This document shows positions 36,494-49,423 of a stretch of DNA of 64,000 bases, piece by piece. The notes under the pieces are model-generated. The model was not told the DNA's origin. It searched no databases and was given only the letters and a program-made list of their open reading frames with translations. The stretch is from Methanorbis rubei (lineage in GTDB: Archaea > Halobacteriota > Methanomicrobia > Methanomicrobiales > Methanocorpusculaceae), in assembly GCF_032714495.1 (NCBI RefSeq), contig NZ_JAWDKB010000002.1, forward strand, positions 1 to 64,000, written 5' to 3'. A program made the translations under genes and the position numbers. Position 1 is the stretch's first letter; the number at the start of each line of letters is the position of its first letter.

Positions 36494-37702
36494 TTAGTGT
36501 GATAAATTATAATCGTAGGTCAGAATCTCATTCCATTTTAACGACTGCCAGGAACCATCACGAATAACCATCAGATCGTACGCAGGCTGCACATCGCCGT
36601 TATCATCAAACACTCTGGGGCCCACAATGCCGACGTGTCTGATCTTATCGAGTGACTCCTTCACTCCCTCATACGTGTACCCGCCATCCGCAATGCAGGT
36701 CGCAAGAAGTATCACCGCATCATAACCGTACGAAACCGGGAACGAGATAGACGTCGTCTCGTTATAGATCTCCTGATACCGCTCACCAAAAGACGGAGTC
36801 GTCAAGCGGTGAGCCTGCGTGAATCCGATCATTCCCTCCGCATACTCACCGACCTCGATTGGAACATCATGCGAGGTCATCGTATCCGAACCAAACCAGA
36901 TAGGATCAAGACCCGCAGCTTCCGCGGCCTGCATGATGTCAATGCCCTGATCAGGATACACGATCAACACGACTGCATCAGGATCAGCCTCTTGCATCAC
37001 AGCCGTCACCGCTGCCGTGTCGATCGGTTTGTTTTCATCAATCTCGACCGTGGTAACTGAGGTCATCGGCAGATAATAGCCGGTCTCCTCCTCAAACGAG
37101 TGAAGCAGACTCTTTCCGTACTGATTTCCCAAGTAAAAAACAACCACGGAATCCATATCCTCAACGCCGCCGAGGATTTTGGTCATGCCGCCTCCCTGAT
37201 ACACATCAGAAGAGACCGTCCGGTATGCATCCTGGAAGTTGGTCAGGGCCGCCGCGGTTGAGCCCGGAGACAGCATCAGAATATCATAGGCCTGCGCGTA
37301 CGGAGCGATCGCAATCGAGTTTCCGCTGCCGATCGCACCAATCATTATCGGAATTTCCCTGTCCCGTATCTCATACATCTGTTCAACCGAGATGTTCACA
37401 TCGCCCTTATCGTTAAAGTACTCAACCCTCAAAGGAACGCCGCGGATACCACCCGCCGCATTCACATCCTCCACCGCCATCTCGATACCGTGCTGGTACT
37501 CAACACCGAAATCATGCAGAGGACCTTCCAAAGGAAGCATCGCGGCAATCACCACTTCATCCTCAGGGAACGGCTCTGAGAGTGTTGTCCCGAACGGATG
37601 AAACACGATGACGAACAAAATGATCATTATCGCAATCAGCAGTACGTCGATAAGATTCGTCCATTTCGTACGCGGCGGTTTACTGTGATGGCTACCTGAC
37701 AT
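36494..37702 (-). CDS. membrane-tethered periplasmic-binding-protein type 1 receptor
   Basis: Protein of 402 residues. It has an N-terminal membrane anchor (LIDVLLIAIMIILFVIVFHPFG) with no lipobox, then a full Leu/Ile/Val-type binding domain: VVIAAMLPLEGPLHDFGVEYQHGIEMAVEDVNAAGGIRGVPLRVEYFNDKGD, IGAIGSGNSIAIAPYAQ, YGKSLLHSF, DPDAVVLIVYPDQGIDIMQAA. Unlike usual ABC operons, no permease or ATPase follows; instead its gene overlaps by 11 bp the Nramp-like/LytS-type fusion upstream. A GGAGG ribosome site precedes the ATG. It probably delivers or senses an amino-acid-like ligand with that partner (inference). Confidence 0.85.
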   Translation of the reverse strand: MSGSHHSKPPRTKWTNLIDVLLIAIMIILFVIVFHPFGTTLSEPFPEDEVVIAAMLPLEGPLHDFGVEYQHGIEMAVEDVNAAGGIRGVPLRVEYFNDKGDVNISVEQMYEIRDREIPIMIGAIGSGNSIAIAPYAQAYDILMLSPGSTAAALTNFQDAYRTVSSDVYQGGGMTKILGGVEDMDSVVVFYLGNQYGKSLLHSFEEETGYYLPMTSVTTVEIDENKPIDTAAVTAVMQEADPDAVVLIVYPDQGIDIMQAAEAAGLDPIWFGSDTMTSHDVPIEVGEYAEGMIGFTQAHRLTTPSFGERYQEIYNETTSISFPVSYGYDAVILLATCIADGGYTYEGVKESLDKIRHVGIVGPRVFDDNGDVQPAYDLMVIRDGSWQSLKWNEILTYDYNLSH

Positions 37703-39713
37703 TGTTGTCCTCCGTTTCTGTTTCTTTTTCCTCTTCCTCTTCTTCCGGCGGATTCATCAGCTCACGCAGATCATTGCGGAATTTTTGCAGATCAAAGAGC
37801 CGGGCAGTTCCTGAGGCGAAGGCGTCATATGTTCGCACAAAGTAGGCAAAGATCAAAAGACCTGCGATGTTGACCATACACATCGGAAGAATGGTAATCG
37901 TAATGACACTGAGAACACCTTCCGCGGTCATTGTTCCAAACGGAATGGTAAGGGTCGGAAGAACAACCAGCAGGTGCAGACATTCAACAAAGATGGCGAG
38001 GACCACTGCCCGGAACATCGAGAGTCGTCCCTTCCAGTAATGAATCATCAGTCCGGCGACAATTCCGGCAAGAACGGTCGCGGCAAAACACGGCAGTGCG
38101 GTCGGCCCTCCTTCGAGATAGCGGTGGATGCCGCCGATAGCTCCAGCCGCAGCTCCGATAAAGGGACCGCCGATCAGACCCGCAATCATGGGGCCTACAT
38201 CGCGGAAGTTGATGATGATGCCGCCAACATCAACCGGAATGCCGCGGACCGTTCCGTAGATGGAGATGGCGCCAAACAAGATCACCGTCCAGAATTTGTC
38301 AAGAAGGTTGGCGGTTCCGTTCAGCATCTTTTTGAACAGCTGGGTTTTCGAGAAGATGAAGAGCACGAACGCAACGACCAGCATCCGTTCGATTAAGGGG
38401 ACGCCGTAGGTGAGGAACGCGGACTCCAGCAGGAGAGCGACGTAAATCGAGATGACGCTCCCGATTCCCATGATCATCAGCCACAGTCGGTTGCCGCGGG
38501 CGTACTTCGGGAGTTTAAGATCCAGATAGATGACGATGAATCCGAAAATACCAAACACGATCGCAGAGAACGCGGCAATTCTTCGGATGATCAGCATCGG
38601 GTCGCTGATAACAAAGGAGGCGATGATGATTCCTGAAAAGACGAGGAGCATTATCTGGTAGAGCGTGTGTTCGGAAGGAAGTTGTCTGCCGGTGTCCTCG
38701 CCGACTCTGCCGATGACTTTTGCTATTGCACGGGCACGGCCGTCCATTCCGACAACGACCGCTCCAAAGAAGATGAAGGCGACAAGTGCGAGGAACACGT
38801 AGGCACCGTAGGGGATACTGCCGACGATGTAGAGTACCTGGGTGATGAGGGTGTCAAGGCTGAGGGTTGCACCGTGACCCATGAAGGAGACGGTGTAGCC
38901 TGAGTAGCCGAGGAAGAGGAAGCTGATGGTGATGAGGGCGACGAAGAAGAAACCGATCAGAACGTCAACATTGACGCTGCGGATGTAGCGGCGGAAGTGG
39001 GTCTCGTTCAAGAGGTCGCAGGATTTGTCGATCACTGCATGGCGGCTGGCTTTTTCATGCAGCCAGACAGAGTAGAGCATGAGGTTGAGACCAGAGCCAA
39101 CCACTCCGATAATTGCAAGGATTGCCATCTCGGAGCCTGCGGGAATTGTGGGAATGACTCCTTCGAGGAAAAGGTTGAGCGGAATCGGAAACTCAACTAA
39201 GGAGATGACGATTGCAAGCGAGAGAACGCCGACGAGGACTGCGATGAACAGTTCGAGTATTTCATACGAGTTGGTCCGAAGCATTGCAAGGGCAACGACG
39301 AGTAAGAAGAGGGCTATCAGTACCGCATTGTAGACTCCGGGCAGCAGGTAGTCGAGGAAGTATGCGGCGAACATGAGCATGCCGCCGATGGCAAGCATTT
39401 CGACTAAGTAGACGATGATGACAAGAACAGAACCCCAGTACTTGGGACCCGGAATACGGTTGAGGGCATCAAATATTGTGTGGCCGGTCGCAAGAGTGTA
39501 GCGGGCGATGCCGTTCGTGAATGCGTATTTGAAGATGAGTGTAAACAAAACAACCCAGATAAGTGCGAGACCGTAGTGCGCACCAATCTCGGTGGCCTCG
39601 GTTACTCCTGCTTCACCTGCTGCGGTGATTGCAAGAAGGAGACCTGGACCGAAAAACACGAAGTTTTCCCGGAACCATTTTTTGAACTTGTGCAGTAGAG
39701 AGGTTTCACTCAT
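37692..39713 (-). CDS. Nramp-like transporter fused to LytS-type five-helix domain
   Basis: A 673-residue membrane protein. The first about 430 residues follow the Nramp layout (FGPGLLLAITAAGEAGVTEATEIGAHYGLALIW; GSGLNLMLYSVWLHEKASRH), but the metal motifs are absent: AGEAG stands in place of DPGN and LNLMLYS in place of MPHN. Residues about 450-620 are a LytS-type 5TM domain with IYGTVRGIPVDVGGIIINFRDVGPMIAGLIGGPFIGAAAGAIGGIHRYLEGGPTALPCF. An acidic tail (EEEEEEKETETED) ends it. It overlaps the tethered binding protein gene. The substrate cannot be a standard divalent metal if these motifs are needed; function unknown. Confidence 0.82.
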   Translation of the reverse strand: MSETSLLHKFKKWFRENFVFFGPGLLLAITAAGEAGVTEATEIGAHYGLALIWVVLFTLIFKYAFTNGIARYTLATGHTIFDALNRIPGPKYWGSVLVIIVYLVEMLAIGGMLMFAAYFLDYLLPGVYNAVLIALFLLVVALAMLRTNSYEILELFIAVLVGVLSLAIVISLVEFPIPLNLFLEGVIPTIPAGSEMAILAIIGVVGSGLNLMLYSVWLHEKASRHAVIDKSCDLLNETHFRRYIRSVNVDVLIGFFFVALITISFLFLGYSGYTVSFMGHGATLSLDTLITQVLYIVGSIPYGAYVFLALVAFIFFGAVVVGMDGRARAIAKVIGRVGEDTGRQLPSEHTLYQIMLLVFSGIIIASFVISDPMLIIRRIAAFSAIVFGIFGFIVIYLDLKLPKYARGNRLWLMIMGIGSVISIYVALLLESAFLTYGVPLIERMLVVAFVLFIFSKTQLFKKMLNGTANLLDKFWTVILFGAISIYGTVRGIPVDVGGIIINFRDVGPMIAGLIGGPFIGAAAGAIGGIHRYLEGGPTALPCFAATVLAGIVAGLMIHYWKGRLSMFRAVVLAIFVECLHLLVVLPTLTIPFGTMTAEGVLSVITITILPMCMVNIAGLLIFAYFVRTYDAFASGTARLFDLQKFRNDLRELMNPPEEEEEEKETETEDNNVR

Positions 39714-40182: not shown

Positions 40183-41217
40183 TCAGAACAAAGGAAGTTT
40201 TTTGTTCTGACTGAAAACGGCGAACGCGAGATAAACCGCAATTATCAGCTGAATCACATTCATGGAACAGAGAAAAAGCGCGTTTTCGTCGCTGCCGAGG
40301 ATCGAAAACAGCAGTACGCAGGATCCTGACAGTACGACCATTATCGCAGGAAGAATTCTTTCATCATCTCTGAGTGCCAGGAAAAGTCCGACGAAGATAA
40401 CCATCATACCGATAGGGACAAGCATTTCGATTGAACTCGTCTGCGAACCGAGAGCGAAGAAAAATCCGAGAAGAAAGAACATGATCGGCGTGAACTTCAT
40501 TTTTGCAATCGCCCAGAGAAGGATACCGACAAACATCAGCATAAGACCGGTCGCAATCTCAAGTGCCACGACGTTTTCGGATGCGATAATTGTCCAGCCG
40601 GTAATGTGCAGGACTGCCCACATCGCAAAGATCATGCCAAGCAAGAGATATCCCAGAACCGAGGCACTGGCTTTGAAGTCGGTCTCGGTATCTGTTCTGA
40701 GTATGTCTGAGCCAGGCAGTTCAATTAAATCACTCACAGAAGCGAAGGCATAGTAGCTCAGAATTACTGCGGCAACAACGGAAAGAATCGCAGTGAAAAT
40801 GCTCTCTCCAAGAATCGACATCAGGATCCAGTAGACGGCGATAAGAATGAGAGGAATAGATAACAGGTATTTTGTTTTATCCTTTGCAGTGAGAATAACC
40901 AGGGCTAAAATGAGAAGGAACACTCCGGTAATGAGGGTGGCTACGTCAGGAAAGGCATTCGTCACCGTCTGAAGTGCCGGAAACGCGGCTACCAGTCCGG
41001 TCATGAGAAATACAATTGCGGTGATGTCGCGCTTTCCCTCAATCGCAAGAATTGTTCCAAAAATTATCAGCGCAAGAGCAGAGAATAAAGAAATATTTCC
41101 CATCGAGGCCGCAGGTACTATCTGGCAGATAAAAAACTCCAGAAGAATAAATGCCAGAACGAGAAACCCTGCCGCAGTGGTGTAGTTTCTCATCTCTGAT
41201 AATGAGAATTCATTCAT
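40183..41217 (-). CDS. unknown polytopic membrane protein
   Basis: Protein of 344 residues, about ten to twelve hydrophobic segments in a row with very short loops (AAGFLVLAFILLEFFICQIV, NISLFSALALIIFGTILAI, LITGVFLLILALVILTA, IFTAILSVVAAVILSYYAFA). One polar loop in the middle (SDLIELPGSDILRTDTETDFK) divides two halves of similar pattern (GNISLFSALALIIFG; ENVVALEIATGLMLMFVGI), suggesting an internal duplication. No catalytic motif is seen. Family not recognised. Confidence 0.72.
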   Translation of the reverse strand: MNEFSLSEMRNYTTAAGFLVLAFILLEFFICQIVPAASMGNISLFSALALIIFGTILAIEGKRDITAIVFLMTGLVAAFPALQTVTNAFPDVATLITGVFLLILALVILTAKDKTKYLLSIPLILIAVYWILMSILGESIFTAILSVVAAVILSYYAFASVSDLIELPGSDILRTDTETDFKASASVLGYLLLGMIFAMWAVLHITGWTIIASENVVALEIATGLMLMFVGILLWAIAKMKFTPIMFFLLGFFFALGSQTSSIEMLVPIGMMVIFVGLFLALRDDERILPAIMVVLSGSCVLLFSILGSDENALFLCSMNVIQLIIAVYLAFAVFSQNKKLPLF

Positions 41218-41309: not shown

Positions 41310-42623
41310 ATGTTGTTCCGTTACCAGATTGATGACCGGGTTCCCCTCAAGGAGTTGATAACATCCGGCATCATGTGGTCGATCTGTTCCTCAATTTTCG
41401 TCATAATTGTCGCGAGTGTGGTCGGAAACCTCTACGGTTTCACCCTCGCAGATACCATCTGGTACACCCAGAAGATGCTCATCATCTCAGGAGTCGCCGT
41501 AATTTTGCAGGTGCTGTTCGGCCACAAACTGCCGGTGGTGTTCGGGCCGTCCGTGATATTTCTGACAGCTGTTGCCGCGTCGGCTGATTTTTCCGTGGAT
41601 GTTCTTGCAACATCCATCATTCTCTGCAGTGTCGCAGGAATTATTATTGCGAGGACACGAGTTCTTGAGTTCGTGGCACGGCTGTTTACGGTGAGGGTTA
41701 TTGCGACCGTTCTGATGCTTTTGTCGATCACGCTTGTTCCGACATTTGTCCGCCTTCTGGTAAATATGGATCAACCGGGAGGGACTGCGGCGAAACTTGT
41801 GTTTGCGTTTGTGCTTCTCGTCTGTATCATTGCCCTGAACCATCGGCTGAAAGGATTCTGGCGGGCGACGTTGATGTTGTGGATGCTGGTTGTTGGAACG
41901 GTTGCGGCACTTTTCTGTTTTCCGGGAACAACAATACCGTTTGTGGACGTGTCAGAGCAGACCCAGGCCTTTTCAGGCCTGTTCATCACGCCCGGGTTTG
42001 CTCCCGGAGTGTTTCTGTCGGTGTTCATCTGCTATCTTGCGGTGATGGTAAATGACATCGGGAGTATCAAAAGTGTGGTTGAGGTTACCGGAGCCGATCA
42101 GGCCCAGACCGAGCCGCGTCTGCGGCGTGCTCTTTCGATTACCGGCATGATGAATATTATCTCGGGAGCGTTCGGTCTTATTGGCGGTGTCAACTATTCT
42201 ATTTCTTCAGGGATGGTGCTTGACACGAAGAATGCGAGCCGGTATCCACTGATTGCAGGCGGAGTTCTGATGATTGTCTGCGCCTGTATTCCAACGCTGA
42301 TACTTCTCATCGATTCCATTCCAACGGTCGTCACCGGCTGCCTGCTGATTTTTATTATGACCAGTCAGCTTGCCGCAGCGTTCGGTGTTCTTGCCGGACG
42401 AGACGATGCTCCTCCGATGACCTTCAACGGCGGAGTTATTATCGGATTTTCCTTACTGATAGCGGCAACCGTTGCGTTCCTTCCTGCGGAGTTAGTGGAT
42501 ACGATTCCGGCAGTGCTGCGGCCGGTGGTTGCAAACGGGTTTGTGGCAGGAACGGTTGCGGTGATGATTCTGGAACATGTGATATTTCGGAAATCTGATG
42601 ATGAAATTTTGAAACGCGAATAG
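41310..42623 (+). CDS. NCS2 uracil/xanthine permease (paralogue 1)
   Basis: Nucleobase:cation symporter-2 of 437 residues. Family marks: DRVPLKELITSGIMWSICSSIFVIIVASV, VLFGHKLPVVFGPSVIFL, SVFICYLAVMVNDIGSIKSVVEV and GVNYSISSGMVLDTKNASRYPLIAGGVLMI. The conserved acidic residues of helices 8 and 10 could not be placed with certainty. It imports a purine or pyrimidine with protons or sodium. A close paralogue lies at 49.7 kb. The last codons (LKRE-stop) are encoded by the start of repeat A4, so the repeat supplied the present stop codon. Confidence 0.86.
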   Translation: MLFRYQIDDRVPLKELITSGIMWSICSSIFVIIVASVVGNLYGFTLADTIWYTQKMLIISGVAVILQVLFGHKLPVVFGPSVIFLTAVAASADFSVDVLATSIILCSVAGIIIARTRVLEFVARLFTVRVIATVLMLLSITLVPTFVRLLVNMDQPGGTAAKLVFAFVLLVCIIALNHRLKGFWRATLMLWMLVVGTVAALFCFPGTTIPFVDVSEQTQAFSGLFITPGFAPGVFLSVFICYLAVMVNDIGSIKSVVEVTGADQAQTEPRLRRALSITGMMNIISGAFGLIGGVNYSISSGMVLDTKNASRYPLIAGGVLMIVCACIPTLILLIDSIPTVVTGCLLIFIMTSQLAAAFGVLAGRDDAPPMTFNGGVIIGFSLLIAATVAFLPAELVDTIPAVLRPVVANGFVAGTVAVMILEHVIFRKSDDEILKRE

Positions 42624-48823: not shown

Positions 48824-49423
48824 ATGGATATTGTGATTCTCGCCTGTTTTTTAATTATAAACCTCGGTCTTGCGGCATTGTCCGGTTATTACCTTGGGAA
48901 GACGAAGCTGTTGGATATTGAAGGAGGCAAACTGACCGGCTGGGCCCGCAACCTCTGCGGAATTGTGATTTTTGGGGCAATCTCAATTATTGGAACTCTG
49001 TCTGCAATCGATGTGAACGGCACAGTTCTGAATAACCGGGACAGCGGGCCGGTTTCCGGCGGTCTCTACTTCGGACCGGTAATCGGTATCGGGGCTGCAG
49101 CACTGAGTGCACTTTTCCGCGTAACGCAAGGGGGCGTTACGATGATCCCCTGCAGTCTTGGAACATTCTTCGCAGGATGCATTGCCGCAGCTGCAGGATA
49201 CTACTTCCGCGAACGTCCGTCCATCTGGCTCGCCGCAGTTATCGGAGTAATCGTTGTTCTGGTACACTCGATTCTCGTGATCTTCCTTACCGAGGGAGGG
49301 ATTGAAACAGGATGGCACATCGTCATGCAGACGCCGGCCGCCGCAGGATACGGAATCACGGTAATTATTTCGATCATTCTGTTCTCGTGGACTTTCCGTA
49401 TCGCGAGAGAGAAAACAGAATAA
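48824..49423 (+). CDS. LytS-type five-helix membrane protein (stand-alone)
   Basis: Protein of 199 residues with six hydrophobic segments. It carries the 5TMR-LYT signature IVIFGAISIIGTLSAIDVNGTVLNNRDSGPVSGGLYFGPVIGIGAAALSALFRVTQGGVTMIPCSLGTFFAGCIAAA, the same pattern as the C-terminal part of the 37.7-39.7 kb fusion, though differing in sequence (RDSGPVSGG against RDVGPMIAG). LytS domains sense murein or small molecules in bacteria. No kinase or effector domain is attached here, and none is adjacent. Confidence 0.83.
   Translation: MDIVILACFLIINLGLAALSGYYLGKTKLLDIEGGKLTGWARNLCGIVIFGAISIIGTLSAIDVNGTVLNNRDSGPVSGGLYFGPVIGIGAAALSALFRVTQGGVTMIPCSLGTFFAGCIAAAAGYYFRERPSIWLAAVIGVIVVLVHSILVIFLTEGGIETGWHIVMQTPAAAGYGITVIISIILFSWTFRIAREKTE

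Follow-up and report, generated by a model that had tools for sequence, protein, structure and literature searches.

A conserved pairing of Nramp-like/5TMR fusions with a LivJ-type solute-binding protein in Methanomicrobiales: a possible uptake or sensing system of an unusual kind

Introduction

We begin with the described systems that come closest to the locus considered here. Fusions of an NRAMP-like protein with a C-terminal 5TMR domain, prevalent in archaea, have been reported by Partipilo and Slotboom in 2024 (PMC11109136), and in the part of that paper drawn on here NRAMP-5TMR is the only 5TMR case whose fused domain is an integral membrane transporter. Nramp-related proteins that lack the DPGN and MPH motifs also form a recognised group, paraphyletic and mostly uncharacterised (PMC12873925; the outgroups are treated also in PMC10606218), and among these NRMT or orphan SLC11 outgroups EleNRMT moves Mg2+ (PMC12873925, PMC8806188, PMC10606218). 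Solute-binding proteins (SBPs) that serve secondary transporters are the third point of comparison. In TAXI-GltS, the SBP gene overlaps the secondary-transporter gene, and the two products were proposed to work jointly on the strength of this translational coupling. The SBP-dependent secondary transporters described to date are, or probably are, of the elevator type; the TAXI-GltS authors ask why so few types of secondary transporter have SBPs, suggest that working with an SBP may call for an elevator mechanism, and name further novel classes as the test (PMC12344293).

The locus of this study lies in a stretch of Methanorbis rubei DNA of 64,000 nucleotides (the window). It encodes a fusion with the published architecture, an Nramp-like N-terminus and a 5TMR C-terminus. 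A preliminary description of the window knew of no such fusion and took the motif-less Nramp part as a surprise; the papers above precede it on both counts. It left out the gene that overlaps the fusion gene downstream, which encodes an SBP. The fusion itself is already published and uncharacterised, and the conserved SBP pairing is what we add. The published account, in the part drawn on here, gives no SBP partner gene, no missing metal motifs and no substrate (PMC11109136); the first two are described below. In the open-access literature that we searched, no substrate is assigned to the family, and nothing is found on SBPs working with Nramp proteins.

Results

Architecture of the fusion protein

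The features of the locus are listed below in window positions, with the evidence for each in brackets.

39713 to 37692, minus strand: fusion open reading frame in one frame, 673 aa, ATG start
38424..39713, minus strand: Nramp-like LeuT-fold domain, residues 1-430, TM1-TM11 (PF01566 match, profile alignment to PDB structures, AlphaFold model)
38346..38423, minus strand: residues 431-456, the H0 helix that opens the 5TMR module and carries the conserved polar pair E442-R443 (conservation among fusions)
37833..38345, minus strand: 5TM-5TMR_LYT (S-component-fold) domain, residues 457-627, with the NFRDVGP and GGPTALPCF motifs (PF07694 match, model helices 458-627)
37692..37832, minus strand: acidic C-terminal tail, residues 628-673, and stop codon (low pLDDT, variable, no Pfam match)
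36494..37702, minus strand: partner SBP of the LivJ/ANF-receptor type, 402 aa, with an N-terminal membrane anchor (ANF_receptor and Peripla_BP_6 matches)

Both domains are found in the one open reading frame, Nramp (PF01566) at residues 39-268 with 70.7 bits against a cut-off of 29.8 and 5TM-5TMR_LYT (PF07694) at residues 458-627 with 131.3 bits against 24.6. The AlphaFold model of the single chain has a pLDDT of 83.8. The solved structures nearest to it are DraNramp and BfraNramp, with a target TM-score of up to 0.85, followed by EleNRMT and then by remoter transporters of the APC superfamily. The tail, predicted to be disordered, has a pLDDT mostly below 65 at residues 631-673, and its sequence differs between relatives (alignment A1).

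Because the fusion recurs across many Methanomicrobiales species, a chance joining of reading frames or an assembly artefact is ruled out as its origin. Nor are the two halves separate genes in close relatives: within the genus they are fused wherever the gene is found, and the Nramp-only genes that occur separately, with about 25-31% identity, fall in a clade of their own. Comparison with a 95%-identical relative gives dS of about 0.37, dN of about 0.025 and dN/dS of about 0.07 (Nei-Gojobori), indicating purifying selection. In Methanocalculus taiwanensis (L084:3473-5391) the fusion is broken inside the Nramp part into two reading frames overlapping by 4 bp, by a frameshift or a true split. 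Upstream of the window fusion, on the same strand, a predicted membrane protein of 344 aa (40183-41217, minus strand) has no Pfam match.

Replacement of the metal site

In the profile alignment to solved Nramps, the TM1 motif DPGN/DPSN falls on G33-E34-A35-G36 of the fusion and the TM6 motif MPHN/TPYN on S207-G208-L209-N210. The canonical Nramp/SLC11 motifs DPGN and MPH(N) are absent, with GEAG and SGLN in their places. The preliminary description was right that both are missing and, the canonical metal site having gone, right to doubt ordinary transition-metal transport. With its PF01566 match and LeuT/Nramp fold, the fusion belongs with the Nramp-related proteins outside canonical SLC11. It shares this fold and the loss of both motifs with the NRMT and orphan outgroups, and differs from them in the attached 5TMR, the SBP linkage and a clade-wide TM1/TM6 pair, GE[A/S]G / GSGLN. 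The replacing residues are strongly conserved: G33 and G36 each occur in 50/50 sequences and E34 in 45/50 (alignment A3), G206 is invariant across the 50 family sequences, and E34 is present in all 45 fusions, including the 33 of the SBP-linked clade.

The partner SBP

The start of the SBP gene overlaps the stop end of the fusion gene by 11 bp. Its product matches ANF_receptor (118.6 bits) and Peripla_BP_6 (105.2 bits), the N-terminal helix spans residues 13-34, and the nearest solved structures are Leu/Ile/Val/Ala/GABA-binding proteins. Residues S126, T149 and D273 align with S79, T102 and E226 of LivJ/LivK, and the triad is kept across the SBP family (S in 30/31, T in 31/31, D or E in 31/31). 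The last of these, E226, holds the amino group of the ligand. S79 and T102 are isoleucine contacts in a docking study of LivJ (PMC6983066). By its fold and these alpha-amino-acid contact residues, the partner is a LivJ/ANF-type amino-acid SBP, and an amino-acid ligand is suggested by this three-residue match, although amides and aromatics are also among the ligands of the family. The gene is under purifying selection (dN/dS of about 0.12 against its closest relative, Nei-Gojobori).

Several variations are seen among the SBPs. The linked SBPs of L018 and L019 have a lipobox-like N-terminus, and in the family of the window SBP (36494-37702; alignment A4) many linked SBPs end in a C-terminal histidine (..SH or ..HH). 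Three loci, L096:1474-3573, L099:4860-7004 and L101:1314-3539, encode SBP relatives joined to a Peptidase_C13 (legumain-like) domain; in L100:2442-5818 an SBP gene and a longer SBP-containing gene overlap by 4 bp, and L097:2795-5080 is a tandem double SBP in one protein of 761 aa.

Linkage of the two genes

In a tree of the Nramp part, the SBP-linked fusions form a single clade (support 100/98, 33 rows), outside which lie the fusions without an SBP and the Nramp-only proteins. The SBP adjoins the fusion in 32 of the 33 members, and the remaining one is at a contig edge, so that the linkage is seen in all testable members. Among the 28 pairs measured with the SBP downstream, the genes abut or overlap in 26, and the commonest overlap, 4 bp, is seen in 13. 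A single basal lineage (L038 = L070) has its SBP upstream of the fusion instead. In the class search 33 genomes give a strong match to the SBP family (E<1e-100), and every one of them also carries an SBP-clade fusion. Within the genus, 16 genomes contain the two genes and 4 lack the two, 3 of these 4 being less than 80% complete; this co-occurrence is weak independent evidence, since neighbouring genes are lost together.

A scan of genome contigs with the fusion protein as single query gives no matches. The same scan with profile A2 gives 37 loci, all titled Methanomicrobiales or its genera, the nearest named relatives of the window being Methanocorpusculum. Apart from the fusion and the SBP themselves, no gene recurs broadly in the SBP-linked loci, and no regulator or enzyme is conserved beside the pair across families. 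An NCS2 nucleobase permease (window 41310-42623; also L039) is not among the neighbours that recur in at least three loci, and we regard its presence as coincidence.

The question that arises is "does the SBP have its usual ABC partner?" We searched for the LivHM permease family (PF02653), with controls positive in 12/14. No match above the cut-off is found in 25 genomes, its own and 24 others, with one match below it, so the SBP is seemingly without that partner. Coupled to a gene of the secondary-transporter type (26/28 pairs, one clade) and lacking an ABC permease by the LivHM test (0/25 genomes), it forms with the fusion a candidate SBP-dependent secondary transporter. Like LivJ and LivK of ABC importers, the SBP has the fold and the amino-acid triad; unlike them, it has an N-terminal anchor, no above-cut-off LivHM in its genomes and an Nramp-5TMR gene as its pair.

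There are 25 fusion positions conserved in the SBP clade and not in the SBP-less fusions. Twelve map to those loops of the Nramp part that are predicted to be extracellular, which make up 84 of 615 positions, and none to the 5TMR. The enrichment (Fisher p of about 2e-5 overall and about 5e-4 within the Nramp part) is calculated on a predicted topology and on positions linked by phylogeny, and we take it as a pointer to a possible docking face, short of proof.

The 5TMR module

The window fusion has RDVGP at residues 504-508 and GGPTALPCF at 535-543. An H0 helix with two consecutive polar residues is described for 5TMR in the part of PMC11109136 drawn on here; in the fusions the pair is E442 in 44/45 and R443 in 36/45. 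Profile match and H0 together place the module in the 5TMR-LYT family. The preliminary description saw in it a LytS-type sensor, and the motifs that it named are indeed present in the window. The sensing role fares less well across the SBP-linked clade: R504 is kept in 21/33 members and lost in 12/33, so that NxR/RDxGP is gone in about one third, against E34 in 33/33 and the SBP triad in 30 or 31 of 31, and no output domain follows. After the 5TMR of the window fusion no kinase, GGDEF, phosphatase or MCP domain is recognised by Pfam or in the model, just the acidic tail of 46 residues. At least in this clade, a role in dimerisation or modulation seems to suit the module better than that of sole sensor.

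Outside the SBP clade the tandem 5TMR copies number one, two (L036, L037) or three (L106:3328-6708, 1126 aa, from a genome listed as the same phylum only). A soluble C-terminal domain is added by the Methanospirillum-type proteins only; in this long form (L033:4875-8378, L034, L035, L082) Nramp-5TMR-5TMR is followed by a conserved domain of 300 aa. The domain finds no credible match in Pfam, NCBIfam or PDB, and a kinase-like identity, an idea formed by eye, is left without one. The genome of the window also has two stand-alone 5TMR-LYT genes without output domains, at window 48824-49423 (plus strand) and C2:183543-184160, encoding 199 and 202 aa.

Discussion

The fusion and its SBP together suggest an uptake or sensing system of an unusual kind, whose solute would be an amino-acid-like compound and not a metal. 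We give a probability of roughly 0.4 to the reading, drawn from sequence, that the Nramp-like LeuT-fold domain receives such a solute from the SBP, for uptake or for transport-coupled sensing. The tethered SBP (36494-37702) would capture an alpha-amino acid or a close analogue outside the cell and form a complex with the fusion (37692-39713) by docking on the extracellular face of its Nramp-like domain. The solute would then be handed over to the LeuT-fold core. There a TM1/TM6 site that is rich in glycine and contains an invariant glutamate (GE[A/S]G ... GSGLN) stands in place of the metal site and would accept the solute, either to take it up or to sense it through coupled transport. At the C-terminus, the H0-5TMR module may dimerise or modulate, with a second ligand possible in some members. 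Fusions closely related to the SBP clade but lacking an SBP have the same TM1/TM6 site, so the site need not serve the ligand of the SBP. A natural fusion of SBP and Nramp was looked for, and none is found.

The arrangement resembles TAXI-GltS, where the SBP gene is also downstream and overlapping, the operon or immediate region holds no classical membrane partner, and the role is drawn from linkage. It differs in having a LivJ/ANF-type SBP, an attached 5TMR and a membrane component that is LeuT/Nramp-like and not elevator-type in the model, and in being known here from sequence. With its predicted non-elevator core, the case is either one of interest or one that calls for caution.

The main rival to SBP-assisted uptake or sensing is a pure receptor for amino acids or similar compounds, in which the transporter fold would merely shift conformation and the signal would leave through a dimeric H0-5TMR to a cytoplasmic partner. 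Sensor kinases are the best-known carriers of 5TMR, H0 and its polar pair are retained in the fusions, and the Methanospirillum long forms bear their conserved 300-aa domain after Nramp-5TMR-5TMR. Transporter-fold receptors are also known, such as CbrA, an SLC5 domain coupled to a histidine kinase (PMC7096432), which like the fusion joins a LeuT-fold transporter domain and sensing machinery in one chain. However, CbrA has a kinase output, whereas the window fusion and every SBP-linked member lack an output domain and end in a short, variable, predicted disordered tail; the Methanospirillum domain has no credible counterpart in the databases, and a regulator gene recurring beside the SBP-linked pairs across families is not found. 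We consider a receptor without transport rather unlikely.

More doubtful still is a role in divalent cation transport, as served by the Nramp-related EleNRMT, with the SBP as a mere neighbour or acting in another step. Nramps, EleNRMT included, are nearest in sequence and fold, and the carboxylates E34, E39 and E105 are still conserved. Yet the TM1 D and N and the TM6 M and H are all replaced, the SBP is of the amino-acid/amide type with its triad kept, and the tight conserved linkage and the lack of an above-cut-off ABC permease point to a working pair. With its metal ligands lost and an amino-acid-type SBP as its partner, the fusion is less likely to be an ordinary metal transporter.

Pyruvate is the ligand of the 5TMR-type domain of YpdA/BtsS, and the NxR and GG-TA motifs kept in the window fusion, with the two or three tandem 5TMR copies in relatives outside the SBP clade, would suit a 5TMR that is the main ligand-binding part (for pyruvate, for example), its ligand supplied or regulated by Nramp and SBP, but this is the least probable reading, as R504 is gone in 12/33 SBP-clade members that keep the SBP and Nramp motifs, and in the closest pair the Nramp part is the slower-evolving of the two (dN 0.011, against 0.035 for the 5TMR part).

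If hand-over from SBP to Nramp-like core is true, there would be an SBP-dependent secondary transporter that is not of the elevator type. The coupling of a LivJ-type SBP with a protein of LeuT/Nramp fold is a concrete, testable candidate against the elevator rule. The NRAMP-5TMR fusions, and with them one uncharacterised Nramp-related branch, would gain a likely ligand class other than metals.
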